61,431 nt of DNA from an uncultured Bacteroidales bacterium (GTDB lineage Bacteria; Bacteroidota; Bacteroidia; Bacteroidales; Bacteroidaceae). The position numbers and the translations under genes are program-made. Under the pieces are notes generated by a model. It made no database searches. It was given only the letters and a program-made list of their open reading frames with translations, and was not told where the DNA came from. The DNA is taken from positions 1 through 61,431 of the forward strand of contig CACZMI010000008.1 in the NCBI GenBank assembly GCA_902782245.1. The letters are read 5' to 3'. Positions 21,931 to 40,070 of this stretch are shown here, in pieces (the first letter of the stretch is position 1; each line of letters begins with the position of its first letter).

Positions 21931-24561
21931 ATGAAAAGATTACTGCCAATTATTGCTGCATTGTGCGTATTGGTTTCCTGTACGGAGACTGACCCGGGTA
22001 GGCTTGAGATTAATGAAAGGGGCTATTTTGAAACCCAAGGTGTAAATGTGCTTGTCTATTCAAACAGGTACCAGGGTGTATTCTGTGATGAGAAGACCGC
22101 GGGAATTGAGATTATACAGCGTGGAGTGCGTATAGCTACCGGCGGCGGAGTGCGTCTTATGAACACACCCGAGCAGTGGGATATCTATTCCACTCTTACC
22201 GAGCGTACCATCGATACTCTGGGCGGCGTCATCAACTGTCATTTCAAGTATCAGGACTATGAATTCGAGTATGACCTCAAGGTAAAGGAAGAGGGTGTAG
22301 GATTCCGTGTATTGGTAGTGCTGGACAATCCTGTTCCGGAGAATCTGGTAGGCAAGGCCGGTCTTAACATGGAGTTTTTCCCTGCCACCTATTACGGAAA
22401 GACATATCTGGTGGACGGCCAGTCGGAGATATTCCCCCGTTATCCGTCAAGTGATACCGAGATGCGTCCCAACAGCGAGAAAATACCTCAGTTCTGGGGC
22501 CTCTCCACATTCGATGACCGCGGCCGTGACGAGTTCATCGTGCCCAAACCCATATCAAAGGGTCACACCATTGTCGTTGCCCCCGAGGATGAGTCACTGC
22601 GTGTGCTGTTCAGTTCGGATGCTGAGCTGAATCTGTTCGACGGCCGCAACCTCTCCCAGAACGGCACATTCGTGGTTCGTTCATATCTCCCCGGCGGTAA
22701 GACCGGAACAGTCCTGGAGTGGTATGTGGAGCCCACGCCAAATGCCGCGTGGATACGTGAACCCAATGTGGGATTCTCACAGATAGGTTATACCCCCGCC
22801 CAGAAGAAGGTGGCCGTCATCGAGTTGGACCGCAATGACAAGGTGGCAGCAAAGGCTAAGATATGGCGCGTGAACGCCGACGGCAGCAGCACACTCGTAC
22901 TTACTCCCGAAGTGAAGGAGTGGGGCGTGTTCTATGACCGTTACAACTATGCCCAGTGCGATTTCAGCGCAGTCCGTGAGCCCGGTACATATTATATAGA
23001 GTATAAAGGCGTAAAGACCAATCCGTTCCCCATCAACGTGAACGTATATGACGGCAAGTGGCACAATACGATGGATGTGTGGCTTCCTGTCCAGATGGAT
23101 CATATGCTGGTGAATGAGGCTTACCGTGTATGGCACGGCCGTTCTCATATGGACGACGCCATCCAGGCACCCACCAATTATCAGCAGCATGACGGTTACC
23201 GCATGGGTAACTCGACCAATACCAAGTACAAACCGTATGAGCATATCCCCGGACTTGCTGTAGGCGCCTGGTATGATGCGGGTGACTTTGACATTCAGTC
23301 CGGTACGGTTATCGGCCTTACAAACCAGCTGGCCGAGGTATGGGATGTACTGCGTCCCGAGCGTGACCAGACATTCATTGACCAGAAGACCCAGTTTGTG
23401 GACATTCACCGTCCGGACGGTCTGCCCGATGTCATACAGCAGGTTGAGCACGGCGCCCTGAACCTTTGCGCGCAGATAGAGAACATAGGTTTCATAGCAG
23501 GCGGTATCGTACAGGGTAATATGCACCAGTATCACCACCTGGGTGATGCAGTAACCATTACAGACGGTTACATCTATGATCCCAGCCTCAAGCCATATGA
23601 GGTACGCGGCAACCGTTCGGGTACACTTGATGACCGATTCGCATTCACCAACAACAACGGTAATCCCATGGGTAACGTTAACGTATGCGCAGCATTGGCA
23701 CATGCTGCACGTGTACTCGCCCCATATATTCCCGAGACTGCTGAGCGTTGCAAGAAGAATGCTCTCAAGCTCTGGAAGGATATGGATGATTATCAGGCTC
23801 AGATGGCCAACCGTCCACAACAGCAGCAACAGTTCAACGGCCAGCGTGGAAACCGTGGTATGGGCGGCGACCGTTCAAGTGCCGCCATCCAGCTGTGGCT
23901 TCTTACAGGTGAGCAGAAGTACAAGGATATGTTCCTGCCCGGCGTGATGCGTCAGATAGAGGCTGCAAGAACTGCTCCCCAGGGTGCCGAGGATAACCGC
24001 ACAGGCGGCGGAAGCGCTATGCGTGCACCGCGTGTAAACATAACTACAGCACTCTCACTGCTGCCTTACATGGACGATGATTTCAAGGCCAAACTGCGTG
24101 AGGTTATTCCGGTATTCGTAGAGGATGCCAAGCGTACTGCCGAGTCCACTCCTTACGGTGTTCCGGTGGCAGGCGGCACATGGGGCGGAAGCGAGCGCGT
24201 GATAAGCTGGGCCCAGAACAACTATATGGTTTGGCGTTACTATCCTGATCTGATTGATCCCGAACTGGTTCTGGCCGGTCTCAATTTCATATACGGCAAC
24301 CATCCGTACTCAAATGTATCATTCGTTACAGCTGTGGGCGTAAACACCAAGAAGGTGGCATACGGAAACAACCGCGCAGATTATACATTCATACCGGGCG
24401 GTATCGCACCCGGACTGGTTCTGCTGCAGCCAGACCTGCTTGAGCACAAGGACGACTATCCGTTCCTGTGGGGTGAGAATGAGTGCTGCACCCGTACCGT
24501 TCCGTCATACGTGACGCTTTCAATCGGTGCCGAGGAGATTGCCGCTGCGATTAACAAGTGA
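21931..24561 (+). CDS. Lipoprotein glycoside hydrolase family 9 (endoglucanase-type)
   Basis: An 876-residue GH9 enzyme. The N-terminus MKRLLPIIAALCVLVSC ends in a lipobox, so it is membrane-anchored. Residues about 20-260 are an extra beta-rich domain; about 275-370 is the Ig-like CelD-N domain (VGFSQIGYTPAQKKVAV); the (alpha/alpha)6 catalytic domain follows with WYDAGDFD (nucleophile-side Asp449 and Asp452) and WGENECC near the end (acid Glu849 or Glu851). A Gln/Gly/Asn-rich insertion (RPQQQQQFNGQ) lies near 630-650. GH9 enzymes cut beta-1,4-glucans and similar chains. No SusC/SusD pair is near, so it is not a standard utilisation locus; it leads an export cluster, with only 35 bases to the next gene. 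Confidence 0.88.
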   Translation: MKRLLPIIAALCVLVSCTETDPGRLEINERGYFETQGVNVLVYSNRYQGVFCDEKTAGIEIIQRGVRIATGGGVRLMNTPEQWDIYSTLTERTIDTLGGVINCHFKYQDYEFEYDLKVKEEGVGFRVLVVLDNPVPENLVGKAGLNMEFFPATYYGKTYLVDGQSEIFPRYPSSDTEMRPNSEKIPQFWGLSTFDDRGRDEFIVPKPISKGHTIVVAPEDESLRVLFSSDAELNLFDGRNLSQNGTFVVRSYLPGGKTGTVLEWYVEPTPNAAWIREPNVGFSQIGYTPAQKKVAVIELDRNDKVAAKAKIWRVNADGSSTLVLTPEVKEWGVFYDRYNYAQCDFSAVREPGTYYIEYKGVKTNPFPINVNVYDGKWHNTMDVWLPVQMDHMLVNEAYRVWHGRSHMDDAIQAPTNYQQHDGYRMGNSTNTKYKPYEHIPGLAVGAWYDAGDFDIQSGTVIGLTNQLAEVWDVLRPERDQTFIDQKTQFVDIHRPDGLPDVIQQVEHGALNLCAQIENIGFIAGGIVQGNMHQYHHLGDAVTITDGYIYDPSLKPYEVRGNRSGTLDDRFAFTNNNGNPMGNVNVCAALAHAARVLAPYIPETAERCKKNALKLWKDMDDYQAQMANRPQQQQQFNGQRGNRGMGGDRSSAAIQLWLLTGEQKYKDMFLPGVMRQIEAARTAPQGAEDNRTGGGSAMRAPRVNITTALSLLPYMDDDFKAKLREVIPVFVEDAKRTAESTPYGVPVAGGTWGGSERVISWAQNNYMVWRYYPDLIDPELVLAGLNFIYGNHPYSNVSFVTAVGVNTKKVAYGNNRADYTFIPGGIAPGLVLLQPDLLEHKDDYPFLWGENECCTRTVPSYVTLSIGAEEIAAAINK

Positions 24562-24596: not shown

Positions 24597-25478
24597 ATGT
24601 CGATAAGTATTAAAGGGTTAAGCCACTACTATCCCAACGGGAAGAGAGCGCTGACCGATATCAACCTTGAGATACCATCGGGGATGTTTGGACTTCTGGG
24701 GCCTAACGGCGCCGGAAAGTCCACTCTGATGCGTATCCTGGTAACACTTATGGAACCTACCGAGGGACAGATTGACGTCTGCGGCTACGATATACGCACA
24801 CAGCGTAAGGAGGTACGTCGCATTCTGGGTTATCTGCCTCAGGATTTCAGGTTTTTTGCCAAGTACAAGGTTCGTGAGTTCCTGGAGTATGCCGCTGCGC
24901 TTACGGGTATGACAAATTCCTCCCAGCGTGGCAAGGCTGTTGACGAGATGCTGGAGCAGGTGGGCCTTTATGAGGCCCGTGACCGATACGCACAGAATCT
25001 GTCGGGTGGTATGAAGAGACGTCTGGGTATTGCCCAGGCCCTTATTCACAAGCCCAAGGTGCTGGTGGTGGATGAGCCTACCACCGGTCTTGACCCCGAG
25101 GAGCGTATCAGGTTCCGTAACCTGTTGAGCGAGGCCAGCTCTAAGGATACCACAATCATCCTGTCAACCCATATAGTAGGCGATATATCAAGTTCATGTA
25201 CCGAGATGGCCATGCTCAACCAGGGTCAGGTCATGTTCCGCGGTTCGCCCGCAGGTATGCTCAGTGAGACAGAGGGCAAGGTATGGCGTCTTCAGGTTAC
25301 CAATGAGCAGTATGCCGAGATAAATCAGAAGTATGCTGTGATATCGACAATTCCTCATGGCCTGGGATGGGATCTGCAGGTCGTGTCAAAGGAGAATCCC
25401 GGATACGGTGCAGTGAACTATCCTCCAAATCTGGAGCATGCATATGTTTATTTTACTGAGATTAAGGATAAGGATTGA
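24597..25478 (+). CDS. ABC transporter ATP-binding protein
   Basis: A 293-residue ATPase. Walker A GPNGAGKS (35-42), Q-loop LPQDF, signature LSGGMKRR, Walker B VLVVDEPTTGLDP, H-loop STHIVGDI. The C-terminal 80 residues form the small extra domain of ABC-2 type exporters (WRLQVTNEQYAEI). It is similar to the ATPase domain fused to the RND pump at 34569-39266: both have SGMFGLLGPNGAGKST and GLDPxERIRFRNLL. Its TGA overlaps the ATG of the permease gene by one base, so the two should form one transporter. Confidence 0.93.
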   Translation: MSISIKGLSHYYPNGKRALTDINLEIPSGMFGLLGPNGAGKSTLMRILVTLMEPTEGQIDVCGYDIRTQRKEVRRILGYLPQDFRFFAKYKVREFLEYAAALTGMTNSSQRGKAVDEMLEQVGLYEARDRYAQNLSGGMKRRLGIAQALIHKPKVLVVDEPTTGLDPEERIRFRNLLSEASSKDTTIILSTHIVGDISSSCTEMAMLNQGQVMFRGSPAGMLSETEGKVWRLQVTNEQYAEINQKYAVISTIPHGLGWDLQVVSKENPGYGAVNYPPNLEHAYVYFTEIKDKD

Positions 25479-28400
25479 TGCTGGGAATAACTAACATACG
25501 CATAGTTTCAAAGTACGAGACTAAACTGCTTGTACGAGGCTGGTTCTTCAAGGTTTTCGCGGTTTTGGCCATATTGGCCGCAGTGATTCTGGGATCTGTA
25601 TATATCCTCCAGCCCTTTCAGCAGCCCGAGATGGTGAACAGGTCTGTAATCCCGTATCTTTTCATGCTGGTAATGAATGTGGGACAGGCCGTAGTATCTG
25701 TATTCCTTGCATCGGAGTATCTTAAGCGTGACAAGCAGCTTGACACGTCAGAGGTGTTCTATACCCGTCCGCTCAGTAATGCGGAGTATCTGCTGGGCAA
25801 GATGTGGGCTACTCTCAAGGTGTTCTTCATGCTTGACCTGGTGGTTGCTGCCATAGCCCTCATAATGAGCCTTGTCAAATACGGCGTCAATCTGGATTAC
25901 CTGAGTTATATATGGTATTTCCTGCTGCTGTCGGTTCCCACGCTGGTATTCATAGTAGGTCTGTCAACCACGCTGATGCTGATACTCAACAACCAGGCTA
26001 TCACTATGGTGATTCTGCTGGCATATATCGGTGTCACACTGTTTTACATCGATGACCTGTACTATTACCTTTTTGACTATATAGGTTTCAACCTGCCCAT
26101 GCTCAAATCGGCAGTGACCGGTTTCAGCGGTCTGTCCCGACTGATAAACCATCGTCTTTGTTATCTGTTGCTTGGCATAGGTCTGATACTTACGGATATA
26201 TCGCTGTTCCATCGTCTGGCCAATTCCAGATACAGCCTGCTGCCCTGGCGTATCACCGCCGCACTGTTCCTGGCAGCCGGTCTGTATGCCGGATACAGGC
26301 ACGTACATACCTATAAGGTCGATGAGAATTACAGGGCCGATATGATTGAACTTGACAACAGGTATGTCAATCAGGGCGGTGCGGTGGCCGATGTGTGCAA
26401 TCTGACTGTGACCCAGCAGGGTGACTCCGTCAGCGTTACGGCCGACATGACCGTAAGACCCAGGGAGGATCAGCAGACACTGGTATTCACGCTCAATCCC
26501 GGATTCCGTATAGGCAGCATCAGCGTTCCGGGCCATGAGGTAAAGAGTGAGCGCCTGAAACATCTGCTTGTACTCACGTTTGCCGGGACGCTGAAGGCCG
26601 ACGAGCCCGTAAGGATCGTCATGGAGTATAGCGGAATGGCCGACGAGCGCATCTGCTATCTGGATATAACGGATGAGAAGATGGTTGAAAATACCAAGGT
26701 GCTCTCCATGCTGAACGTTCCCAAACGTTACCTGTTCCAGAGCGGAGATTATACCATGCTCACCCCCGAAAGTTACTGGTACCCGCGTCCGGGTGTGGCT
26801 TTCAGCAACGAAAGTCCGGAGTGGGAGAGGTCATACTTTACCGATTTCAATCTCATCGTCACTCCAAATCCCGGACTGACGCCTATATCACAAGGCCTGT
26901 GTTCGGTCAACGCCGATTCGACACAGTATACCTTCAAGCCCGAGTCGTCACTACCGTCAGTATCACTCCTGATAGGTGATTACAGACCCAAGTCCATGAT
27001 GGTGGATTCCACGCTCTATACGGTTTGGGAATTGGGCGAGTGGGATGACAGGTTCGCTGTATTTGATTCCATAGCCGATACCCTTTCAAACTTTGTCCGC
27101 AGCACGCGCAGGACCATGGAGTTCACGGCAGAAATGAAATATCCCTTCAGGCGTTTCTCGATAGTTGAGGTTCCGGTCAATTTCACCTCATACAAACGTG
27201 TGTGGACATCGGCCTACGAACAGTTGCAGCCTGAGATGGCACTGGTACATGAGAGAGGCTGTGACATGCGTATGTTCCAGTTTGAGAACCAGAAGCGCAT
27301 GTATGGAATGGGCGGAAACCGTCGTAGGGGAAACAACAACATGTCTGAAAAGGAGATACTCATAAGTGTCTTCCAGACGGCAATCAATTTTATGATGCAG
27401 CAGGGCAGTTTCTCGGGCTCTAACCGCGGAGGTCAGTTTACCATGACCCAGACGGACAATCCCTACTACTACATGCCTCTTTTCTACAACTTCAGATACA
27501 ACATCTACTCGTCCGACTGGCCGATGGCTAAACGTATGGTAGAGTCGATAACCAACACCAACAGCAATAATAACGGAGGTGAGTGGCTCAGGAGAATGAA
27601 CGGTCTTTCTGAGGATGAGAAGGCTCTGATACTGATGGGCAAATACGATTTTAACCGTATCATGTCCGATCCGGAATGGGAGGATCTGGCTGATAATGCC
27701 TTGGCGCTCAAGACACAGGATTTCTTTGCCCCCGTATCGGCCGCAATGGGATATGAGGCTATGATTGATTCCATTACCGCCAAGACCAGGGAGAAGGAGT
27801 TCTCTAATGTTTCGTTTGATTCCATTCTGGACTGGCTGCAGACATTCTCGGGAGTGAGCCTTAAGGAAAAGATCGATGCCTGGGACGAGCCGGTCCGTCT
27901 GGCCTGCTACAAGATAGGCAATCCCCAGATGACTACCGTAACTACCGATACGGCAGATATCTATCAGGCTGAGATCGCGGTTGAGAACATATCGGACTAT
28001 CCGGGATATGTTACGCTGGAATACGTGTTCTTTGAGACTGAGAATGCCGGCGACGAGGACAAGCCAAAGAAAATGCTGATCAGTGTGGCTCCGCATGAGA
28101 CACGCAGGATTGTGACCCACTGGTTCAATACACCGAGCCGTATTGACGTCAATACGATGCTGTCATCAAACCTTCCGCATCTGGTAAGGCTGGATAACTC
28201 CAACTGGAGTACATATACAGGTACTGACCTGACTCCCGAGGGAGTCTATTCGCTGCGCACGGGTGTGGACAACACACTCCCGGGTGAGATAATTGTGGAT
28301 AACGAGGATAAGGAGCTGTTTACCCTGTCCAGACCTATCCGTACAGGATATCTCTCCAAATGGATAGACAAGTCACGTGAGAAAAAGAACGAATTCACTT

Positions 28401-28861
28401 ATGAGGGCTTCTCAGATTGGCGTACATATACCTTGTGGACTCTGGTGACCGATCAGAGTATGTACGGCGACTATATACGGTCGGCATATATCATATCACC
28501 GGGAGACGGTTCGCAGTATGCCCGCTGGAGTGTTCCGTTAACCGACGCCGGAGTATATGACGTCTATTTCTATACGTCACCTGACATGTACGACAACAAT
28601 AACCGTAACCGCAGGTGGAACAACAACAATAACAACAATAACAACGGCCGCAGGGTGACCAATGACTACAATTTTGAGATTGAGCAGTTCAATATGCAGG
28701 ACCGTGTGTCTCTTAACATGTCGCGAGCCGAGGAGGGCTGGAACCTGCTTGGAACATTCCGTTTTGAGGCCGATACCGTGAAGGTGTCACTCAACAACCG
28801 CTCCGGCGTGAGTGTTATCGTTGCGGATGCTGTGAGACTGGTAAAGAGAGTAAGGGATTGA
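25478..28861 (+). CDS. ABC-2 permease with large periplasmic region and golvesin-like C-terminal domain
   Basis: A 1127-residue membrane protein. Residues about 20-280 carry six hydrophobic helices of the ABC-2 type (LVRGWFFKVFAVLAILAAVI). After about 290 comes a long hydrophilic region with an M1-peptidase-like outline (about 320-860) but no HExxH zinc site that I can see. The last 150 residues (YGDYIRSAYIISPGDG, VPLTDAGVYDVYFYT, FEADTVKVSLNN) look like the golvesin/Xly carbohydrate-binding-like domain, interrupted by an Asn-rich run near 1050. TTG at 25475 precedes ATG 25478; the ATG overlaps the ATPase stop and is preferred. It probably couples ATP use to an envelope glycan or protein substrate. 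Confidence 0.8.
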   Translation: MLGITNIRIVSKYETKLLVRGWFFKVFAVLAILAAVILGSVYILQPFQQPEMVNRSVIPYLFMLVMNVGQAVVSVFLASEYLKRDKQLDTSEVFYTRPLSNAEYLLGKMWATLKVFFMLDLVVAAIALIMSLVKYGVNLDYLSYIWYFLLLSVPTLVFIVGLSTTLMLILNNQAITMVILLAYIGVTLFYIDDLYYYLFDYIGFNLPMLKSAVTGFSGLSRLINHRLCYLLLGIGLILTDISLFHRLANSRYSLLPWRITAALFLAAGLYAGYRHVHTYKVDENYRADMIELDNRYVNQGGAVADVCNLTVTQQGDSVSVTADMTVRPREDQQTLVFTLNPGFRIGSISVPGHEVKSERLKHLLVLTFAGTLKADEPVRIVMEYSGMADERICYLDITDEKMVENTKVLSMLNVPKRYLFQSGDYTMLTPESYWYPRPGVAFSNESPEWERSYFTDFNLIVTPNPGLTPISQGLCSVNADSTQYTFKPESSLPSVSLLIGDYRPKSMMVDSTLYTVWELGEWDDRFAVFDSIADTLSNFVRSTRRTMEFTAEMKYPFRRFSIVEVPVNFTSYKRVWTSAYEQLQPEMALVHERGCDMRMFQFENQKRMYGMGGNRRRGNNNMSEKEILISVFQTAINFMMQQGSFSGSNRGGQFTMTQTDNPYYYMPLFYNFRYNIYSSDWPMAKRMVESITNTNSNNNGGEWLRRMNGLSEDEKALILMGKYDFNRIMSDPEWEDLADNALALKTQDFFAPVSAAMGYEAMIDSITAKTREKEFSNVSFDSILDWLQTFSGVSLKEKIDAWDEPVRLACYKIGNPQMTTVTTDTADIYQAEIAVENISDYPGYVTLEYVFFETENAGDEDKPKKMLISVAPHETRRIVTHWFNTPSRIDVNTMLSSNLPHLVRLDNSNWSTYTGTDLTPEGVYSLRTGVDNTLPGEIIVDNEDKELFTLSRPIRTGYLSKWIDKSREKKNEFTYEGFSDWRTYTLWTLVTDQSMYGDYIRSAYIISPGDGSQYARWSVPLTDAGVYDVYFYTSPDMYDNNNRNRRWNNNNNNNNNGRRVTNDYNFEIEQFNMQDRVSLNMSRAEEGWNLLGTFRFEADTVKVSLNNRSGVSVIVADAVRLVKRVRD

Positions 28862-28883: not shown

Positions 28884-30389
28884 ATGAAGAATAGAAAAAC
28901 AGTAATTGGGGCAGTACTTGCGCTTACAGTGACATCGGTTTTGGCAACCGGTGCCCAGGCGCAGATTGTCATGACCATGGAACAGGCCCTGCAGTACAGT
29001 GCAGAGCATAATCCTGATCTGATTAACTCCCGCATGAGTATGGAACGTTACGAGCAGAACCTGATTGCCCAGAGGGCATCGCTCAAGTCAAGGTTCTCAC
29101 TTAATCTGACTCCTGTCTCATACTCGCAGTCACGTCAGTTTGACAGCCGTTTCTCTGACTGGTACACCAACCGTTCGCTGTCATCGTCCGGTACGTTCAG
29201 CATATCGCAACCCATCATCTGGACCGATGCAACCCTGTCGCTCAACAACAGTCTGTCATGGCAGAACAACCAGTCGACGATAGGAGGTACCACAAACAGC
29301 AACCGTGCATTCAGTAACAGTCTTTACCTAAGTCTGACCCAGCCTCTGTTCACCTACAACAGGACCAAGATGAACATGCGTCAGATTGAGATGAACTATG
29401 AGAACGCCCGCATCAGCTATGCCTTGCAGATGCTTAACGTGGAGCGCAACATCACAAGCCAGTTCTACAGCCTGTTCACTGCACAGCAGAACCTTGAGAT
29501 CAGTGAGAAGGAGCTTGAGAATGCCGAGAAGAACTTTAATATAATAAAGGATAAGGTTGAGGCAGACCTGGTTACAAAAGACGAATTCTATCAGGCCCAA
29601 CTTAACCTGTCACAGTCCCGTTCAAGCCTGGAGAACCAGAGGGTGAGCCTGGAAAACTCAAAGGACAACTTCAAGCAGGCCCTGGGCATACCTCTGGATG
29701 AGGATATCAGGGTGGTATGTGACATTGAGGCCGATCCGGTACTGGTGGACTTTGACAAGGCTCTGGAAAGCGCCATGTCATCCAGACTGGAACTCCGTCA
29801 GCGTGAGATATCGCGTGAGCAGCAGGAGATGTCAATGATCCAGGTCAAGGACAATGACAGTTTCAGCGGCAACGTATCACTTTCCGTAGGTATCATGGGA
29901 GATGATCCCAATTTCCCCCACATTTACGACAATCCTACCAACAACCCGCGTGTGGCCGTATCGTTCAGTGTTCCTATCTTTGACTGGGGTGCCCGTAAGG
30001 CACGTATCCGCGCCGCCGAGATAGAGCGCCAGATGTTTGAACTGAGCGCCGAGGAGGAACTCAAGAGCATAGAGATGAACCTGCGCAGTACTTGCCGCAG
30101 TCTTGACAACCTGCTTCAGCAGATATCCATTGCAGAGCAGAGCCAGCAGAACGCTCAGATGACTTATGACCTCAATGAGGAGCGTTACCGTAACGGTGAA
30201 CTGACCGGTATGCAGATGAACCAGTTCCAAACACAGCTTTCAAACAGCAAGATGTCATATACCCAGGCCATCATCAACTATAAGGTTCAGCTTCTGAACA
30301 TCAAGATCCTGACCCTTTACGATTTTGAGAAGGACGAGCCCGTGGTTCCCATCACGTACCAGGAGACTAAAGACAAGAAAAAGAAATAA
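28884..30389 (+). CDS. TolC-family outer membrane channel
   Basis: A 501-residue outer membrane efflux protein. Signal peptide ends near ATGAQAQ (about residue 27). Two similar halves with long coiled-coil helices are visible: NPDLINSRMSMERYEQNL and LNVERNITSQFYSLFTAQQNL, then the second repeat IREQQEM region and SQQNAQMTYDLNEERYRNGE. Strands such as FSVPIFDWGARKARI mark the beta-barrel. It should form the trimeric exit duct for the pumps encoded next (17-base gap to the adaptor). The C-terminus is Lys-rich (ETKDKKKK). Confidence 0.93.
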   Translation: MKNRKTVIGAVLALTVTSVLATGAQAQIVMTMEQALQYSAEHNPDLINSRMSMERYEQNLIAQRASLKSRFSLNLTPVSYSQSRQFDSRFSDWYTNRSLSSSGTFSISQPIIWTDATLSLNNSLSWQNNQSTIGGTTNSNRAFSNSLYLSLTQPLFTYNRTKMNMRQIEMNYENARISYALQMLNVERNITSQFYSLFTAQQNLEISEKELENAEKNFNIIKDKVEADLVTKDEFYQAQLNLSQSRSSLENQRVSLENSKDNFKQALGIPLDEDIRVVCDIEADPVLVDFDKALESAMSSRLELRQREISREQQEMSMIQVKDNDSFSGNVSLSVGIMGDDPNFPHIYDNPTNNPRVAVSFSVPIFDWGARKARIRAAEIERQMFELSAEEELKSIEMNLRSTCRSLDNLLQQISIAEQSQQNAQMTYDLNEERYRNGELTGMQMNQFQTQLSNSKMSYTQAIINYKVQLLNIKILTLYDFEKDEPVVPITYQETKDKKKK

Positions 30390-30406: not shown

Positions 30407-31465
30407 ATGAAAAAAGGAATCAGCGTACTTACACTGGCTGCCCTGACAGTTCTTATGGCAGGGTGCAGACAAGAGAACACAATGAACCGTGCCGAGATAC
30501 CTACACCGGTATCGGTATCGGACATTACCTATGGCTCTATAAGCAGGGTTTTCACAACCAACAGCACTGCTATTTCAAGTGCCGAGGCTGAGCTGTCAAC
30601 AGAGATGGCCGGCAAGTACCATCTGCAGAAGAATCCCGCTACAGGCAAGCCTTATAAACTGGGTGACAAGGTTAAGAAAGGTGCCCTGATTGTACGTATC
30701 GAGGATAAGTCTTATGAGAACGGCATATCCATCGAAACCAAACGTCTGAATCTGGAACTTGCCGAGCAGGAGCAGGTCAAGACAAAGTCTCTCTATGAAA
30801 AGGGTGGTGCAACCCTGACCGAGGTCAAGAACTCGGAGGTCAAGATCATGAACTCTCGTCTGGATTATGAGAACGCCGAGATGAATCTGGAGAAGATGAA
30901 TATCCGTGCTCCCTTTGACGGTGTGATCGTAAACCTTCCTCACTTCTCGGAGGAGGCCAAGGTCAACAGCGGAACATCGGTGGTAACCATAATGGACTAC
31001 AGCCAGATGCTGCTTGAGATCAACCTCCCGGAGAGTGCCATCACTGAGGTCAAGGTGGGCCAGAAGGCATACATTACCCATTATACTCTCCCCAAGGACA
31101 CAATCATGGGTGAGATCACCGAACTCTCTCCGGCCATCAGTGCCGAGACCCGTACATTCAAGGGCAAACTTATGATAAACAATAAGGACCTGCTCATCAG
31201 ACCGGGTATGTTCGTAAAGGCTGATATCGTTACCGAGAGCCACAGCTCCACAATCATCATTCCCAAGAACATTGTCCGCCCCGAGCGTAACAGACGCATC
31301 GTATTTGTGGTTGACCAGGGTATAGCCAGGGCAAAGCAGGTGAGACTTGGTCTCGAGGAGAAGAACATGGTGGAGGTACTGGATGGTCTTGAAAGAGACG
31401 ATCAGTTGGTAGTCCGCGGTTTTGAGACCCTGAGAGACGGTTCAAAGGTGAAGATCCAAAGATAA
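30407..31465 (+). CDS. RND efflux periplasmic adaptor (lipoprotein)
   Basis: A 352-residue HlyD/AcrA-type adaptor. N-terminal lipobox LMAGC (about residues 17-21). The lipoyl halves flank a helical hairpin: VKKGALIVRIEDKSYENG, then LAEQEQVKTKSLYEKGGATL, then MNIRAPFDGVIVNLPHF. A beta-barrel domain (VGQKAYITHYTLPKD, PAISAETRTFKGKL) and a C-terminal membrane-proximal domain (VRLGLEEKNMVEVLDGL) follow. It links the inner-membrane pump to the TolC-type channel. The first 65 residues are longer before the lipoyl domain than in AcrA. Confidence 0.92.
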   Translation: MKKGISVLTLAALTVLMAGCRQENTMNRAEIPTPVSVSDITYGSISRVFTTNSTAISSAEAELSTEMAGKYHLQKNPATGKPYKLGDKVKKGALIVRIEDKSYENGISIETKRLNLELAEQEQVKTKSLYEKGGATLTEVKNSEVKIMNSRLDYENAEMNLEKMNIRAPFDGVIVNLPHFSEEAKVNSGTSVVTIMDYSQMLLEINLPESAITEVKVGQKAYITHYTLPKDTIMGEITELSPAISAETRTFKGKLMINNKDLLIRPGMFVKADIVTESHSSTIIIPKNIVRPERNRRIVFVVDQGIARAKQVRLGLEEKNMVEVLDGLERDDQLVVRGFETLRDGSKVKIQR

Positions 31466-31479
31466 ACAGAGCGTAAAGG

Positions 31480-34400
31480 ATGAAAAGACTTGTAAGTTGG
31501 GCGGTCAGGAATCCGGTCACCGTCACCATGGGGGTGCTGGCTATCCTGCTGCTCGGAAAAATAGCATATGACAGGCTTAGCGTGGAACTGCTTCCAAGCA
31601 TGAACAGCCCCCGCCTGTTTGTCGAAATAGATGCCGGCGAGCGTCCGCCCGAAGAGATTGAGAAGCAGTTCGTGCGCAGCATGGAGTCTCAGATTGCGCG
31701 TCAGAGTGACGTGCGCTCGGTGTCATCGGTCGTAAAGGTGGGTACTGCCCGTATTACGGTAGAGTATGCATGGCGTAAGAATATGGACGAGGCGTTCCTG
31801 GATCTGGAAAAGGCCATGAGCAGTTTCTCTCAAGACAGCCGTGTGACCGACCTTCGTATTTCACAGAAGGATCCCACCACCGCACCTATCATGATCATAG
31901 GTTTCTCCAACCCGGACATAACTGATATGGCCGAGTTGCGTAAGGTGGCCGACTCATATGTGAGCAACGAACTCATGCGTGTTGAGGGTGTGGCCGATGT
32001 ATCCCTGGCCGGTGACGAGTTCACCAACCTGATCATCGAGGCCGATCCCTACAAGCTCCAGGCTTTCAATGTCACTGTCGACAACATATCGTCACGTATC
32101 CAGGAGAGCAACCAGAGGGTTTCGGGCGGCAGAATATCGGAACAGGGCTTCCAGTATCTGGTAACAGGTTCCAATACCCTGACCGATGAGACTGCTTTCG
32201 GCAATATCATAGTGGGTTACCGCAATACCGAGACAAGTCCGGGCCAGATAGGCGAGTTTGAATCGGCCAGCATGGCTCCCATCTACCTGCGTGACGTAGC
32301 CACCATCCACTTTGAGAACCGCGAACCCGAGAACATCGTAAGGGTGAACGGCAAGCGGAGCATCGGCATATCCGTATTCAAGGAGATGGACTATAATACC
32401 GTCAAGGCGGTTGAGGGTGTCAAGACAAGCCTTGCCAAGATTCAGAAGTCACTGCCCGGATATGAGGTCAAGATCATCAGCGACCAGGCTACTTTCATCA
32501 ACAACTCTATCGGTGAGGTTAAGAACAGCGCCCTGCTGGGTGTGCTGCTGGCTATCGTGGTGTTGTTCGTGTTCCTGCGCAGGGTGGGTACCACTCTCAT
32601 CGTGGCCGTATCAATACCTGTATCAATCATAGCAACTTTCAACCTGATGTTCTTCAGCGGGCTGACCATAAACATACTCACGCTGGGAGGTCTTGCTCTG
32701 GGTGCCGGTATGCTGGTGGATAACGCCATCGTGGTCATTGAGAGCATATTCAGAAATCAGGAACGCGGTCTTTCGGTGCGTGACGCCGCTGTGACCGGTA
32801 CATCCGAGGTGGCCGGTGCGGTATCGGCATCAACCCTTACCACCATCGTGGTATTCCTGCCTATCGTATATCTGCACGGTGCTACAGGTGAACTGTTCAA
32901 GGATGAGGCCTGGACGGTAACGTTCTCGCTGGTTTCTTCACTTCTGGTGGCTATACTGGTGATACCTACACTCTATGACAAGATATTCGGACGCAAGAAA
33001 GCCGTTCCCCTCAAGAACTTCAGTTCGGTGAACATAAAGGGTTACAGCTCGTTCCTGAAACGTCTTGTCGGTAAACGCTGGTGGGTTATATGCGCATCGG
33101 TCATACTGGTTGCCGGAACAGTGTTCCTGCTGCCGTATGTAGGTACCGAGTTTATGCCCAAGACCGATGAGGGCACCATCAACGTGAAGGTGCGTATGGC
33201 CGAGGGTACCAGTCTGGAGCGTACATCGTCCACACTTGAGAGCGTTGAGAATCTGGTTTATGACCTGACCGATGATCCCGACTGCATGATCTATACACAT
33301 GTGGGACCGGGTGCTTCGTCACAGAACATGGACTTTGAGGGTGAGAACACCGCTTCGATGAAGATACAGCTTTCAAAGGCATCGGCCGTTACTCCTGATT
33401 ACCTTACCGAGGTCCTTGCGGCCTATATTGACGGAGTAGAGGGTATGGAACTCTCATTCACTCAGGATGACAACTCTCTGAGTTCGATGATGGGTACCGA
33501 GGATGCTCCTCTGGTGGTCGAGATAAAGGGTGAGGATCTGGACCTGCTGTCTGCACTTACATCCCAGGTAAAGGCTGCGGTTGACTCGATTGACTGCCTG
33601 TATAACGTTGAGAGTTCACTGGCAGGCGGAGCGCCCGAGATCATTATCACGGTTGACCGCGCCATGGCCGGAATGAACAACATTAACGTATCAACCATAA
33701 TTACCCAGATACAGCAGCATCTTGCCGGACGTGAAGCCGGTCAGATGGACTACAGGGGTGACATGAGAGATATCAGCATCAAGGTTCCCGGCGTTTCTCT
33801 GGCCGATCTGAACAATATGGTCATAACATCGGGCCAGAAAGATTTCCGTCTTGTGGAACTGGCCAGGATCAGTGAGAGCACTGCACCTAAGGAGATATCG
33901 CGCCTGAACCAGAACCGTGTGACACGCGTCACTGCCGAAATCGACGAGTCAATATCACTGGACAAGGCCGCTCAGCGCGTCAGAGATGCGGTATCGGGCA
34001 TTGAACTGCCGCAGAACTACTCCATAACCGTGACCGGTGAGGAGGAGCGTCGTGCAGAATCGATGAACAGCCTGCTTCTGGCACTGGTATTGTCAATCGT
34101 ACTGGTTTACATGGTGATGGCATCACAGTTCGAGTCACTGCTGCATCCGTTCACCATCCTGCTCACCATACCTCTGGCTTTGGTGGGTGCGGTACTGATG
34201 TTCCTGATAACAGGTATAACCGTGAATATAATGGGTATCATAGGTATGGTTATGCTGGCCGGTATCGCGGTCAACAACTCCATTATCCTTGTGGACCGCA
34301 TAGGACAGCTCAAGGATTCCGGTCTGAGCCTTACCGACGCCATAGCCGAGGCAGGTCAGCAGCGTATCCGTCCTATCCTTATGACCAGTCTTACCACTAT

Positions 34401-34572
34401 CCTGGCACTTGTGCCTATGGCATTGGGAATAGGCGAGGGGGCATCCCTGAGTTCGCCCATGGCCATCGCCGTGATAGGCGGTCTGGTTACCTCGACTCTT
34501 CTGAGTCTTGTGGTGATACCGTGTGTTTATTATGTATTTGAAAGCGCCAAAATCAGAATCACAGGCAAATGA
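31480..34572 (+). CDS. RND-family efflux pump (AcrB-like)
   Basis: A 1030-residue inner-membrane RND pump of full length. Helix 1 is about 9-28 (NPVTVTMGVLAILLLGK), followed by the first porter loop, helices 2-6 (about 345-500), the second porter loop and helices 8-12 (about 840-1020). In helix 4 the relay motif reads GMLVDNAIVVIES: one Asp is kept and the AcrB Asp408 position is Asn. In helix 10 it reads AGIAVNNSIILVD, lacking the AcrB Lys940. Both substitutions are seen in other Bacteroidota RND pumps. It is preceded by a clear AAAGGA site and overlaps the next pump gene by 4 bases, suggesting a two-pump assembly as in MdtBC. Confidence 0.93.
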   Translation: MKRLVSWAVRNPVTVTMGVLAILLLGKIAYDRLSVELLPSMNSPRLFVEIDAGERPPEEIEKQFVRSMESQIARQSDVRSVSSVVKVGTARITVEYAWRKNMDEAFLDLEKAMSSFSQDSRVTDLRISQKDPTTAPIMIIGFSNPDITDMAELRKVADSYVSNELMRVEGVADVSLAGDEFTNLIIEADPYKLQAFNVTVDNISSRIQESNQRVSGGRISEQGFQYLVTGSNTLTDETAFGNIIVGYRNTETSPGQIGEFESASMAPIYLRDVATIHFENREPENIVRVNGKRSIGISVFKEMDYNTVKAVEGVKTSLAKIQKSLPGYEVKIISDQATFINNSIGEVKNSALLGVLLAIVVLFVFLRRVGTTLIVAVSIPVSIIATFNLMFFSGLTINILTLGGLALGAGMLVDNAIVVIESIFRNQERGLSVRDAAVTGTSEVAGAVSASTLTTIVVFLPIVYLHGATGELFKDEAWTVTFSLVSSLLVAILVIPTLYDKIFGRKKAVPLKNFSSVNIKGYSSFLKRLVGKRWWVICASVILVAGTVFLLPYVGTEFMPKTDEGTINVKVRMAEGTSLERTSSTLESVENLVYDLTDDPDCMIYTHVGPGASSQNMDFEGENTASMKIQLSKASAVTPDYLTEVLAAYIDGVEGMELSFTQDDNSLSSMMGTEDAPLVVEIKGEDLDLLSALTSQVKAAVDSIDCLYNVESSLAGGAPEIIITVDRAMAGMNNINVSTIITQIQQHLAGREAGQMDYRGDMRDISIKVPGVSLADLNNMVITSGQKDFRLVELARISESTAPKEISRLNQNRVTRVTAEIDESISLDKAAQRVRDAVSGIELPQNYSITVTGEEERRAESMNSLLLALVLSIVLVYMVMASQFESLLHPFTILLTIPLALVGAVLMFLITGITVNIMGIIGMVMLAGIAVNNSIILVDRIGQLKDSGLSLTDAIAEAGQQRIRPILMTSLTTILALVPMALGIGEGASLSSPMAIAVIGGLVTSTLLSLVVIPCVYYVFESAKIRITGK

Positions 34573-37500
34573 AGTCATTTATTGACCGTAGAGTAACTAT
34601 CTGCATGCTTCTGGTGGCGATGACGCTGCTGGGCTATTTCTCATACAAGCAGCTTCCCGTTGAGTTGCTGCCCAATACGGAACTGCCCCAGCTTTACGTG
34701 ACATGCTCATCCAGAAGCGACCTTACTCCGGCATACATGGAGCAGCAGGTGGTGATTCCGCTCGAGGGAGCAATAAGCGCTGTGGGTGGCGTGGAGAACA
34801 TGGAATCGACGGTATCGGGCCGACAGGGTTCCATCAGGGTTGATTTCAAACGCGGAACCAACCTCAAGATGACCACCGTAAAGCTGCAGGAGAAGATCAG
34901 CTCCATAAGGGGCGATTTCCCGAGCGATGTCACAGTCAATGTCCAACAGGCCAACATTACAGGTGTAAGCAACCAGTTCATGTCACTTCAGGTGCGCGGA
35001 TCGGGTGGTGTTGACCGTCTGAGAGCCATCGTGGACAAGGATGTGGTACCGCGTCTGGAGAGTATAGACGGAATAGCAGGCGTGACGGTGTACGGCGGAC
35101 GTGTCAAGTCAATCGAGATACGTTCCAACCCCGAGGCAATGCATGCACTGAACATATCCAATTCACAGATAAGCCAGGCTTTGAACCAGTATAACCAGGA
35201 GCGTACTTTCTTGGGATTCATAAGCGAGCCTGACCGTAAGTATTATGTTCAGCTTGACGCCAACTATGACGACGTGTCGCAGGTGGAGAACCTGGTGGTG
35301 GCGCAAGGCCCCGTATATCTGAAGAATGTAGCCACTGTCTTCTTTGACTACAGGGAGGAGACAACCATCAGCCGTGTGAACGGTATGGACGCCATTTCCG
35401 TGTCTCTGGTGAACGGAGCAGGCGAGAACCTTCTGAACCTCTCCAACCGTACACTGAAGCGAATTGATGAAATAAACAAGGAGGTAGCCGCACAGGACCT
35501 GCAGCTTGTGGTTCAGTCAAATTCGGCCGACCAGATAAGCAACAACATATCACAGATAGTAAAACTTGCCCTGATAGGTGGTCTTCTGGCTGTTCTGGTG
35601 CTGTGGTTCTTCCTGCGCAACCTGAGCCTTGTGTTCTTTATCGCGCTGTCAATACCTGTGTCCATATTATCGGCCTTCAACGTGTTCTACGCAGCCGGTA
35701 TATCCATAAACACCCTTACCCTTATAGGTATGGCGCTGGCTGTGGGTATGTTGCTGGACAGCAGTATCGTTGTGCTGGAGAATATCTACCGCCTGGCATC
35801 AATGGGAATGCCGCCGCGTCTGGCAGCGCTCCAGGGTGTCAAGGAGGTGCGTAAAGCCCTTATATCATCTACGCTCACCACGATAACGGTATTCCTGCCG
35901 TTTGTATTCTCGGATGAGCCCATGATCAAGCTGCTGGGAAAGAACATCGGTTTCTCCATCATATCGACCCTGGTGTTCTCGCTCCTGGTTGCCGTAACGT
36001 TCATCCCTATGGCTACGGCAGCCATGATGGAGCGTGGTGGTGGCAGTAACAGTGTCTTCTTCAAGAAGATGTCCATACATGACCGTCCTCTGCAGATGTA
36101 TTCGACTCTGCTCAAGACGTGTCTGAGAAAGCCCGGACCGACTATCGGCATAGCCGTGGCCGTTCTGGTTATAGCCTTTGTATTCGCCCTGTCCCGCGAT
36201 ACCGGGCAGAACCGTCAGGTTGACAGTGACCGTATCAACGTGAACATTACAATGCCCAGCGGCAGCACTATCGATGATACCGATGAGGCAACGGCTACTC
36301 TCGAGGAGCGTCTGGACAGCCTGGAGTATAAGAAGGATGTGATAAGCCGTATCCAGGAGGATCAGGCATCAATTACCGTCACTCTGCAGGAGGGATACAA
36401 CAAGAAGGGTGGTCCTACCATCAGCCAGCTTGTTGAAGAGCTGAATGAAAGCCTTGCCCTTGAGAATGAGATTGACGTGCGTGTTACTGCGGGTTATGCC
36501 CGTGGCAACCAGAGTGCATCGGGCCTGAGTTCCCTGACCCGTTTCATGAGCGTGCTGGGTATGGGTGACAATACTGAGAGAATAGTCGTCAAGGGTTCCG
36601 ATACAGAGACCATGCGTGTGGTTTCAAACAACCTCAGATACTATCTGGAGCAGTTGGAGTTTATACGTAACGTCAGGGTAGACAACCCGGGCGGCCGTCG
36701 TGAGGTTCAGCTTACCTTTGATCCCGTGGCTCTGGCATCGTACAACATATCCACATCGGCCATAACACAGGCCCTTAACTCTCTGAACCGTACTACCAGC
36801 ACCGGTGCCAGTTTCAAAGTGGGTACCGATGAGTATGACATAGTCATAATGGATGACCTGACCGAGGAAGAGGAGGAGATGGGACGCTGGGAGAAGACCT
36901 TGGATGATTTGCGTCGCGTAATCGTGACCGATGCAAACGGCGGCACCCATGAACTGCAGCAACTGGCCAACATCCGTCTGAGCCGCGGACCGTCGGAGGT
37001 ACGTCGTGTCAACCGTGACCGCCGCGTGAATGTGACATACTCCATATCACAGAGTGAGGAACTGCCCAAGGATGTGCTTGACGGCTATCATGATCAGATT
37101 GATGACCTGATTGCCAACTACAACCTGCCTTCGGGTCTGGCTCTCGAGGTTCAGCGCGGTGATGACTCCACCAGTGAGTTCAAGTTCCTGATACTGGCGT
37201 CTATCATACTTATATTCATGATATTGGCATCGGCCTTTGAGTCACTGACCACGCCTATAGTCCTGCTGTTCTCCATCCCGCTGGCTGCCATCGGCTCGCT
37301 GCTGGCTCTGCTCCTGTCGGGCAACAGCCTGATGAACGCCAACACGCTGACAGGATTCCTTATCCTGCTGGGTATAGTGGTAAACAACGGTATCATACTG
37401 ATTGACTACTCAACGACATTGCGCCGCCGTGGCTACAACCGTATGAGGTCAATCATGAACAGCGGTTATTCGCGTCTGAGACCTATCTGCATCACTACCA

Positions 37501-39266
37501 TCACCACCATCGTAACGCTTATCCCGATGGCAATGGGTGACAATGAGTATGCAGGTGCCATAGGTGCTCCGTTCGCGCTGACTGTAATAGGCGGTCTGAC
37601 ATTCTCGGCCATACTGACGCTGCTGCTCATACCTACGCTCTACATATCGTTCGAGAACATGAGGGCATGGTACAGGAAACTGGGCAGATACACCCATATA
37701 CTGCATGCAGTGCTATTCGGCGTGGGCCTGATACTGATCTTTACTACCGTACACGGTATATTCCGTATACTCATTTACATTATCGTGCTGGCTATAGCCG
37801 TTCCGGGTATTACGTACTTTATAAAGAGTTCGGTACGTTTTGCACGTAAGGATATCGTAAAGCCCGGCGAGCCGATTGTAATTGAGGTGCGTAACCTGGT
37901 CAAGGTCTATGACTGGTACAGCCTGTTCCTGCGTCAGTGGCGCAGCGGCCTGAATATACGCCGCCGTTTGGGACTGGCACGCACTTTCCATCACGCAAAG
38001 GATTTTGTAAGCCTCTTGTGGCAGGTGGTTGTGTTCGGGTATACATGCTATCTGGCCGGATGGTATTTTGAGAAACAGGGCTGGATCCTGCTCATGACCA
38101 TTATTACACTGGCAGGTGTCAACAATATCCTCAAGGCTGTACTTGAATATATAGCATACAAGTTCAAGAAGGGTGCCGGTGCAGTGGCTGTAATCCGCAA
38201 GATCCTATATTGGGCACTTCCGATATGCGCTATGATGTTCCTGAGTTCACGCATTGAGAGCAAGGGATTCATGGTATTCATTGCCGTGGTATGGATATTG
38301 GGACTCTGCATCAGCAAGACTGCAGACTATCTGTATGAGAACAACATCAATGTAGAGCGACTCAAGGGTGAGACTGCCGGTATCCGTCGTGCATGGTTCG
38401 TGTTCGTAAAGAGTATTCCTATCATCGGCAAGCGCAAGAAGCCGTTCAAGGCCCTGCGTGGTGTGACGTTTGAGATTCACAGCGGTATGTTCGGCCTTCT
38501 GGGTCCGAACGGTGCCGGTAAGTCCACGTTCATGCGTATCGTGACCGGTATCCTGCGTCAGAGTTACGGAACGGTGTTCATAAACGGTATGGATACCCTC
38601 AAGTACAGGGAGGAGCTGCAGAGCCTGATAGGCTTCCTGCCTCAGGAGTTCGGCATGTACGAATCCATGAGCGCATGGGACTTCCTTAATTATCAGGCCA
38701 TCCTTAAGGGTATTACCGATGAGAAGGTGCGTAATGAGAGACTGGAGTATGTACTGACATCGGTACATATGTATGAGCAGAGGAATTCGGCCATCGGATC
38801 GTTCTCGGGCGGTATGAAGCAGCGTATCGGTATTGCGCTTATACTGCTTAACCTGCCGCGTATCCTCGTGGTCGATGAGCCTACCGCAGGTCTTGACCCG
38901 CGTGAGCGTATCAGGTTCCGTAACCTTCTTGTTGAACTTAGCCGTGACCGTATCGTGATATTCTCGACCCATATCATTGAGGATATAGCAAGTTCATGTA
39001 ATCAGGTTGTGGTTATTGAGAGGGGTTCGCTCAAGTACTTCGGTGAGCCCAACGATATGGTCAAGCTTGCCAAGGACAAGGTATGGCTGTTTGACATTGA
39101 GGCATCCCGTCTGGGTGAACTCGACGAGAAACTCATTGCCAATCACATCCAGGACGGCAGCATGATCAAGGTTCGTTACATATCTCCCACATGCCCGTGG
39201 CCGGGTGCCGAGCTTGCCGAGCCTAATCTGGAGGATGCATACCTGTGCCTATTAAAGAACCTTTAG
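34569..39266 (+). CDS. RND efflux pump fused to an ABC ATPase (1565 aa)
   Basis: One unbroken frame joins two transporter classes. Residues 1 to about 1035 are a complete RND pump: helix 1 at about 7-27, relay motif GMLLDSSIVVLENI in helix 4, GIVVNNGIILIDY in helix 10. From about 1045 two more helices follow (HAVLFGVGLILIFTTV and IVLAIAVPGITYF). VIEVRNLVKVYDW (about 1104-1116) resembles the first strand of an ABC domain, but about 190 residues with four more hydrophobic segments come before the rest of the ATPase: Walker A GPNGAGKS (about 1313-1320), FLPQEF, signature FSGGMKQR (about 1413), VVDEPTAGLDP and STHIIEDI. Every ATPase motif is intact. The small permease gene after it could supply the ABC membrane part. 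Confidence 0.92.
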   Translation: MKSFIDRRVTICMLLVAMTLLGYFSYKQLPVELLPNTELPQLYVTCSSRSDLTPAYMEQQVVIPLEGAISAVGGVENMESTVSGRQGSIRVDFKRGTNLKMTTVKLQEKISSIRGDFPSDVTVNVQQANITGVSNQFMSLQVRGSGGVDRLRAIVDKDVVPRLESIDGIAGVTVYGGRVKSIEIRSNPEAMHALNISNSQISQALNQYNQERTFLGFISEPDRKYYVQLDANYDDVSQVENLVVAQGPVYLKNVATVFFDYREETTISRVNGMDAISVSLVNGAGENLLNLSNRTLKRIDEINKEVAAQDLQLVVQSNSADQISNNISQIVKLALIGGLLAVLVLWFFLRNLSLVFFIALSIPVSILSAFNVFYAAGISINTLTLIGMALAVGMLLDSSIVVLENIYRLASMGMPPRLAALQGVKEVRKALISSTLTTITVFLPFVFSDEPMIKLLGKNIGFSIISTLVFSLLVAVTFIPMATAAMMERGGGSNSVFFKKMSIHDRPLQMYSTLLKTCLRKPGPTIGIAVAVLVIAFVFALSRDTGQNRQVDSDRINVNITMPSGSTIDDTDEATATLEERLDSLEYKKDVISRIQEDQASITVTLQEGYNKKGGPTISQLVEELNESLALENEIDVRVTAGYARGNQSASGLSSLTRFMSVLGMGDNTERIVVKGSDTETMRVVSNNLRYYLEQLEFIRNVRVDNPGGRREVQLTFDPVALASYNISTSAITQALNSLNRTTSTGASFKVGTDEYDIVIMDDLTEEEEEMGRWEKTLDDLRRVIVTDANGGTHELQQLANIRLSRGPSEVRRVNRDRRVNVTYSISQSEELPKDVLDGYHDQIDDLIANYNLPSGLALEVQRGDDSTSEFKFLILASIILIFMILASAFESLTTPIVLLFSIPLAAIGSLLALLLSGNSLMNANTLTGFLILLGIVVNNGIILIDYSTTLRRRGYNRMRSIMNSGYSRLRPICITTITTIVTLIPMAMGDNEYAGAIGAPFALTVIGGLTFSAILTLLLIPTLYISFENMRAWYRKLGRYTHILHAVLFGVGLILIFTTVHGIFRILIYIIVLAIAVPGITYFIKSSVRFARKDIVKPGEPIVIEVRNLVKVYDWYSLFLRQWRSGLNIRRRLGLARTFHHAKDFVSLLWQVVVFGYTCYLAGWYFEKQGWILLMTIITLAGVNNILKAVLEYIAYKFKKGAGAVAVIRKILYWALPICAMMFLSSRIESKGFMVFIAVVWILGLCISKTADYLYENNINVERLKGETAGIRRAWFVFVKSIPIIGKRKKPFKALRGVTFEIHSGMFGLLGPNGAGKSTFMRIVTGILRQSYGTVFINGMDTLKYREELQSLIGFLPQEFGMYESMSAWDFLNYQAILKGITDEKVRNERLEYVLTSVHMYEQRNSAIGSFSGGMKQRIGIALILLNLPRILVVDEPTAGLDPRERIRFRNLLVELSRDRIVIFSTHIIEDIASSCNQVVVIERGSLKYFGEPNDMVKLAKDKVWLFDIEASRLGELDEKLIANHIQDGSMIKVRYISPTCPWPGAELAEPNLEDAYLCLLKNL

Positions 39267-39353: not shown

Positions 39354-40070
39354 ATGTCAGTATTACAGACAACAAAATCATTCGGCAAGTTGTGTATGTA
39401 CAACATGAGGATAATATTTGCCGGCAAGTTCATATGGTTCCTGCTGGTGGGCCTGGCGCTGTTTTTCTTCCTCATGTTCGCAGCCGCGTCAAGAGGCACG
39501 TCGCTCAGTCACGGCATGGTTTACAGCCAGCTTATCATACCGGGACTGCTGCTGGTTTTTTATCCGTCATGCTTCGGTATTCAGAATGATGCCGACCACC
39601 GCATCCTGGAACTTCTTTTCGGTATACCCAACTATATGTACAAGGTATGGCTGTTCCGCCTGGTGATGATATACGTCGAGGTATATCTGATTCTTGTGGT
39701 TTACGCCTTCCTGGCCAGGATCCTGCTGTTCCCCGTAGAGCCTTTTTCCATGGCGGCACAACTTATGCTTCCGGTCACACTGTTCGGCAACCTGGCATTC
39801 CTGTACTCAACCCTTATCCGTAACGGAAACGCCGCTGCCGTGCTCTCCGTGCTTACGGTGATACTGGCCATGATCCTTGGCAATATCCCGTTGGTTGAGA
39901 ACAAGATGTGGGATGTAACCATCAATCCCTACGAGGAGCCCGAGAACATCAATGCCGCCATCTGGAGCCTTACATTGCTCAAGAACCGCATCATCATGGC
40001 AGTCGCAGCTCTTATATTCCTGATGTCGGGGTTGCTTGGCTTGCAGAACCGAGGCAAATTCCTGGGGTAA
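39354..40070 (+). CDS. ABC-2 type permease subunit
   Basis: A 238-residue membrane protein with six hydrophobic segments (FIWFLLVGLALFFFLMFAA, LIIPGLLLVFYPS, LFRLVMIYVEVYLILVVYAF, LMLPVTLFGNLAFLYSTL, AAVLSVLTVILAMILGNI, IIMAVAALIFLMSGLLGL). The polar loop FGIQNDADHRILELLFGIPN resembles the coupling loop of ABC-2 exporters. No ATPase of its own is encoded, and the nearest ATPase is the C-terminal domain of the preceding 1565-residue fusion, 87 bases upstream; the two probably work together (inference). Last gene of the cluster; the hairpin at 40108-40144 lies after it. Confidence 0.8.
   Translation: MSVLQTTKSFGKLCMYNMRIIFAGKFIWFLLVGLALFFFLMFAAASRGTSLSHGMVYSQLIIPGLLLVFYPSCFGIQNDADHRILELLFGIPNYMYKVWLFRLVMIYVEVYLILVVYAFLARILLFPVEPFSMAAQLMLPVTLFGNLAFLYSTLIRNGNAAAVLSVLTVILAMILGNIPLVENKMWDVTINPYEEPENINAAIWSLTLLKNRIIMAVAALIFLMSGLLGLQNRGKFLG

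Follow-up and report, generated by a model that had tools for sequence, protein, structure and literature searches.

A single chain joins an RND permease to an ABC ATPase in a conserved seven-gene operon of Bacteroidota

Pumps of the resistance-nodulation-division (RND) superfamily and ATP-binding cassette (ABC) pumps are held to be distinct classes, each with an energy source of its own: what, then, is a protein family that is both? The question is raised by a gene, here called G, in a stretch of 61,431 nucleotides from an uncultured Bacteroidales bacterium of the Bacteroidaceae (contig CACZMI010000008.1 of assembly GCA_902782245.1, positions 1 to 61,431; this whole stretch is referred to as the window). 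An earlier note on this DNA had described one frame of 1565 codons holding both modules, and had suggested either two energy sources in one export machine or an ABC exporter physically coupled to a tripartite channel. The frame is as described: it starts with an ATG at 34569 and continues on the + strand to 39266 with zero internal stops, encoding 1565 amino acids. Pfam places both domains on this chain: ACR_tran at residues 2-1028 (E 1.5e-164), spanning positions 3-1020 of the 1021 of the profile and thus the domain of about 1020 residues that characterises the RND superfamily, and ABC_tran at residues 1296-1440 (1e-24). The NCBIfam models that match best describe plain RND permeases, and these matches stay below the model cut-offs; among the best 60 of 583 matches of a PDB sequence search, the best stretch was always the RND or the ATPase part, never both. 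G can be divided into five parts:

34569 to 37652, + strand: part 1, RND permease 2, residues 1-1028 (ACR_tran 2-1028)
37653 to 37874, + strand: part 2, pair of extra helices that follows the RND body, residues ~1029-1102
37875 to 37910, + strand: part 3, strand 1 of the ABC ATPase (IVIEVRNLVKVY), residues 1103-1114
37911 to 38444, + strand: part 4, helical membrane insert that interrupts the ATPase, residues 1115-1292
38445 to 39266, + strand: part 5, remaining ABC ATPase and an ABCA/DrrA-like C-terminal domain, residues 1293-1565

The fusion is not confined to the window genome. Among 151 genomes of the family (own genome included), the whole chain was found in five of the eight other genomes of the genus (84-93% identity) and in one genome of another genus (62%), with one contig-edge fragment in another. 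The linker (residues 1035-1294) was searched more widely, as the earlier note had proposed: it has matches in 52 of 393 genomes of the order, own genome included, from 33 of 207 genera. Beyond the order, linker profiles were run against two sets of 395 genomes each and gave strong matches in four genomes: G733 and G847, from a different family of the class, and G1005 and G1211, from a different class of the phylum. The frames of all four have 1561-1577 amino acids. Weak matches outside the order (E 1e-5 to 1e-3) consist of short pieces only, and we take them as chance or as plain ABC ATPases (first set: G651, G701, G752, G897 and G902; second set: G752, G985, G1063, G1084, G1130, G1144, G1164 and G1197). 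A plasmid search with the linker and ATPase returned no match covering 80% of the query among the 5000 listed; the best 20 were ABC ATPases or unannotated places and covered at most 54%.

For the alignments, 45 loci from other genomes were used: 42 of the 51 order matches outside the own genome and three from the family, a choice that favoured long frames (of the nine order matches left out, eight have frames below 1340 amino acids cut by contig ends, and G475 has 1570). All 45 hold the full fusion (1509-1633 amino acids, 42-93% identity) with an RND gene just upstream; a missed stop or an assembly error at the junction, either of which the earlier note had named as fatal to its reading, is thus not what is seen. 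Named genomes gave 408 candidate stretches, of which 382 encode a relative; the best 80 of these 382 all come under Bacteroidota names, with Bacteroides and Parabacteroides isolates among them. The frame has at least 1480 amino acids in 68 of these 80 copies, ends at a contig edge in eight, contains a run of N in one and is interrupted in three. The three interrupted frames (L146, L182 and L192) are from metagenome assemblies, two of them Bacteroides bins with similar names (C.2_15 and BH.2_15), and are either pseudogenes or sequencing errors. Full frames are present in the isolates Bacteroides faecis MAJ27, B. faecichinchillae, B. bouchesdurhonensis, Parabacteroides gordonii and P. faecis. 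An assembly chimera, for which we found nothing in favour, is refuted by such full frames in independent assemblies, and its probability is negligible.

Could the frame nevertheless yield two separate proteins, by an internal start or by cleavage, so that the fusion is a join at the level of the gene only? The three interrupted copies could be read in this way, and internal GTG or TTG starts lie outside our count of methionine columns. However, across residues 1028 to 1306 methionine occurs in at most nine of the 46 aligned fusions (window copy included) in any one column, so the internal start that the earlier note had considered at residues 1035-1310 is not supported for methionine codons. 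In addition, the first ATPase strand is conserved and precedes the insert, so any product begun downstream of the insert would lack part of the ATPase, and most of the best 80 copies have the long frame, with contig edges and the N run accounting for nine others. The junction is under purifying selection as protein: dN/dS, the ratio of nonsynonymous to synonymous substitution rates, was estimated against close copies in 26 comparisons, including two duplicates. It is 0.045-0.176 for the insert and 0.05-0.21 for the two extra helices, where two of the values could not be computed. We regard two separate products as very improbable.

The ATPase half has both the motifs and the fold of an ABC nucleotide-binding domain (NBD). 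The Walker A lysine, the Q-loop glutamine, the SGG signature, the Walker B Asp-Glu and the H-loop histidine are invariant in all 46 aligned fusions, bearing out the intact motifs reported before. NBD matches among the 60 best PDB sequence matches are ABCA1, ABCA3, ABCA4 and ABCA7; DrrA and GldA models match too, below their cut-offs. The earlier note had placed some 190 residues with about four helices between the first strand and Walker A, and both hydropathy and the structure model agree. Walker A (GPNGAGKST) is at residues 1312-1320, about 200 residues downstream of strand 1; the strand is strand 76-85 of the model, where solved NBD structures align from model residue 72-75. The insert of about 180 residues between them has four hydrophobic segments in the window copy and four long helices in the model (114-137, 141-169, 171-199 and 203-228). 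With a loose hydropathy cut-off, the insert has four or five segments in 36 of the 46 fusions, three in eight, and fewer in L103 (two) and L104 (one), whose inserts are about 65 residues shorter; since the number varies, it is the window copy and the model that speak for a count of four. The two helices after the RND body are helices 11-31 and 35-59 of the model (residues ~1040-1060 and ~1064-1088), and the stretch before strand 1 has two hydrophobic segments in 37 of 46 fusions and one in nine. The fusion of L109 carries a low-complexity stretch of about 60 residues, rich in Gly, Ser and Asp, between strand 1 and the membrane insert. A membrane insert within an ABC ATPase is an unusual structural solution.

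G belongs to a conserved operon with the gene order B-C-D-E-F-G-H. Its other members in the window, and the hairpin that follows it, are:

24597 to 25478, + strand: B, stand-alone ABC ATPase, 293 amino acids, DrrA/GldA/ABCA-like (ABC_tran 1.1e-33)
25475 to 28861, + strand: C, 1128 amino acids, predicted N-terminal ABC-2-type permease, M1-peptidase-like part and terminal Golvesin_C
28884 to 30389, + strand: D, TolC-like outer-membrane channel (OEP 1.3e-50)
30407 to 31465, + strand: E, periplasmic adaptor (membrane fusion protein; RND_mfp 1.7e-56)
31480 to 34572, + strand: F, RND permease 1, 1030 amino acids (ACR_tran 1.6e-218)
39354 to 40070, + strand: H, half-permease of ABC-2 / type V fold, 238 amino acids
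40107 to 40138, + strand: terminator-like hairpin after H, 14-pair stem followed by a T-run

The end of F overlaps the start of G by four nucleotides (ATGA); the two genes are adjacent in 45 of 45 loci, and their sequences fall in separate clades. B is 42% identical to the NBD of G, has invariant catalytic motifs in 35 of 35 aligned sequences and forms one clade with the NBDs of G (support 1.0), apart from eight other ABC open reading frames (ORFs) of the genome. In the C family (30 members including the window copy, E<=0.1), Golvesin_C is found in 30, ABC2_membrane_2 in 23 and Peptidase_M1 in 14; the window copy taken alone has a weak match to ABC2_membrane_4 (E 0.0055, below the cut-off). 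An active M1 peptidase would carry the zinc motif HExxH, which is absent from 37 of 38 C proteins; the one string found (L069, around residue 885) may lie within or outside the M1-like stretch. E has a lipobox-like pattern near its start in 24 of 38 homologues and is perhaps a lipoprotein. The fold of H is predicted from VIA-align matches to NosY, ABCG, ABCA, ABCH, Pdr5 and a mycobacterial efflux pump; a Foldseek search with the H model gave nothing better than E 0.03. H was found in 42 of 329 genomes of the order, every one also a linker match. Hence the linker and H searches revealed no genome with H yet without a linker match that could represent an unfused ancestor; G1211, which may not have been part of the H search, has a strong linker match and no H match. 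The hairpin after H has the longest stem among 16 terminator-like sites in the scan, although shuffled sequence averages 10.9 such sites and the count itself says little.

What drives the RND half is less obvious than its fold suggests. In AcrB, according to PMC8277102, the proton relay consists of D407, D408 and K940 with R971 and T978, and replacing one charged relay residue abolishes extrusion. The earlier note had seen all RND motifs in G, which holds for a part of this relay only. With the register checked by alignment to solved RND chains, G keeps the equivalents of D407 (D397), R971 (R969) and T978 (T976), each in 46 of 46 sequences, and F keeps D407 (D414 in the window copy) in 45 of 45 readable sequences and R971 and T978 in 46 of 46 each. 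The equivalents of D408 and K940 are gone from both: in G they are S398 (N in 36, T in five, S in four and C in one of the 46) and N939 (N in all 46), in F they are N415 (N in 45 of 45 readable sequences) and N932 (N in 44, S in two). Neither subunit thus has the set of D407, D408, K940 and R971 found in AcrB-type HAE-1 pumps; with D408 and K940 replaced, we file G as RND and not as an AcrB-type antiporter, and with both subunits affected, proton drive cannot be assumed. As for the partners with which a trimeric AcrB-type pump works, genes for an adaptor (E) and an outer-membrane channel (D) are present in the operon.

One may ask whether the fused ATPase itself powers the RND pair, wholly or partly, through the extra helices, with C and H as structural partners. 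The double replacement in both G and F, the effect of a single such substitution in AcrB (PMC8277102) and the invariant NBD motifs would all fit, as would the presence of both D408 and K940 in 24 of 28 other RND sequences. However, 22 of these 28 were the best matches to the fusion in the family search and not a random choice (the other six are from the own genome), and the four that lack both residues are two RND gene pairs of the own genome (C1:23000-30500, L253, and C1:99000-107000, L254) with no fused ATPase, so the loss is not peculiar to the fusion. D407, R971 and T978 are moreover kept in all G and all readable F sequences, and two putative ABC-2-type permeases are at hand to use the ATP. 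We consider ATP drive of the RND pair rather unlikely. The two energy sources of the earlier note are possible and unproven: the ATPase motifs are intact, but both RND subunits lack two relay residues. Slightly broader, and still doubtful, is a new class of exporter: either an RND pump without the standard relay, powered by ATP through an attached, membrane-threaded ABC ATPase (a primary-active RND pump), or ATP and proton drive coupled across two membranes.

The other proposal of the earlier note, an ABC exporter coupled to a tripartite channel, is well supported by the operon, which supplies a second ATPase, two putative ABC-2 permeases, an adaptor, a channel and a second RND protein. We favour, with moderate confidence, a two-step hybrid exporter in which ATP-driven ABC-2 transport at the inner membrane feeds an RND-adaptor-channel conduit, G joining the two. 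The seven genes would encode a hybrid exporter spanning the envelope, with G as one of its subunits. The RND half of G would form a tripartite conduit together with F (as a heterotrimer of the MdtBC type), the adaptor E and the channel D, while the C-terminal half would bind ATP as part of a type V (ABC-2/ABCA-like) exporter, in which it would pair with the other ATP-binding subunit, ATPase B, beneath the permeases C and H. The ABC exporter may be docked beside the RND subunit by the extra helices, of which two follow the RND body and about four lie between ATPase strands 1 and 2. With ATP, the ABC-2 part would transport a substrate across the inner membrane or extract it from there, the large periplasmic portion of C would take it over, and the RND-adaptor-channel part would convey it through the periplasm and the outer membrane. 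Separate pumps are described to cooperate in this way, one transporter delivering to the periplasm and a tripartite pump onward (PMC4338810). We infer production of the full chain and its joint complex, as well as the direction and order of transport and the class of substrate.

Several points weigh against this two-step exporter. C and H show no homology at profile level (hhalign probability 1.2%). In one genome (G247, locus L076) the fusion is followed by another ORF, open to the contig end, and H is on another contig; in L089 an ORF of 214 amino acids lies between G and H. The pairing of B with G and of C with H, like the F-G trimers, is what we infer from gene content. Distances of the operon genes correlate pairwise at 0.74-0.94 over 38 loci (mirror-tree, with no outside control gene), but this is expected from joint inheritance and is not used as proof. 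Finally, a covalent link is no proof of joint transport, and the ABC part could be regulatory.

MacB- and FtsEX-type ABC proteins act on periplasmic partners, and by this model the ABC part would transport nothing itself but move the M1-like and golvesin region of C to open, assemble or load the RND pump. C indeed looks like a binding or adaptor domain, given its size (an estimated ~850 residues beyond the permease part), its mean identity of 34% over 38 loci, the lowest among the seven operon proteins, and the general lack of HExxH. On the other hand, the ABC parts match families and folds of the ABC-2/ABCA/NosY class, which as a rule transports substrate, although NosFY serves enzyme maturation. 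We judge such gating less probable still than ATP drive of the RND pair.

In 20 upstream stretches no ORF family except B occurs in more than four loci, and there is no shared regulator to point to a substrate; ten upstream ORFs that were scanned belong to DUF3244, Metal_resist, phosphomannose isomerase/cupin, DUF6249, RecO, EamA, DUF2807, Wzi and an oxidoreductase, with one having no match. Directly upstream of the operon, L228 and L231 have a second ABC ATPase gene and small genes (in L231 one for a DUF2807 protein), perhaps a second ABC module. In the window, a GH9-type glycosidase gene with a lipoprotein-like start (21931-24561, + strand) ends 35 nucleotides before B and may share the operon transcript in this genome; it also precedes B in L112, but its absence from the 20 upstream stretches makes it probably a chance neighbour. 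At the far end of the window (59912-61342, - strand), a single chain combines a DFP (pantothenate metabolism) domain with DUF4835.

Each module has known relatives. MdtABC of Escherichia coli (HAE-1) shares the RND domain and the two different RND subunits with one adaptor per operon; among solved structures, MdtB matches the RND part of G best, and its relay positions hold Asp-Asp and Lys, as against Asp-Ser and Asn in G. To our knowledge MdtABC, unlike the fusion operon, has neither an ABC ATPase nor an ABC-2 permease. Type V / ABC-2 exporters (ABCA lipid exporters, NosFY, DrrAB and GldA) resemble G in its ABCA-near NBD and H in its NosY/ABCG fold, but in G an RND pump carries the NBD as its tail, and a membrane insert interrupts this NBD after strand 1. 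In ArsAB an ATPase has likewise been added to a carrier otherwise able to run on the membrane potential, but ArsA is no ABC ATPase and a separate protein, and the system has no trans-envelope parts. In MacAB-TolC an ABC exporter works with an adaptor and a TolC channel, but there is no RND subunit; in MacB the fused NBD stands on the N-terminal side of the permease of the same protein (PMC8277102). We found no description of an RND-ABC fusion in the open-access literature (most subscription papers and all bioRxiv preprints were outside the search). The iron table of PMC10434189 contains BT1212-14 of B. thetaiotaomicron with TolC, RND and ABC genes, which may be the same operon. The modules are of known families, and the chain, the insert and the seven-gene machine were found nowhere described.

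The G family appears to bring together in one device two kinds of pump that usually act separately, and the coupling of two transport steps in two membranes becomes testable by point mutants in one chain. The fusion is present in cultured gut commensals, and many gut and environmental Bacteroidota carry the operon.
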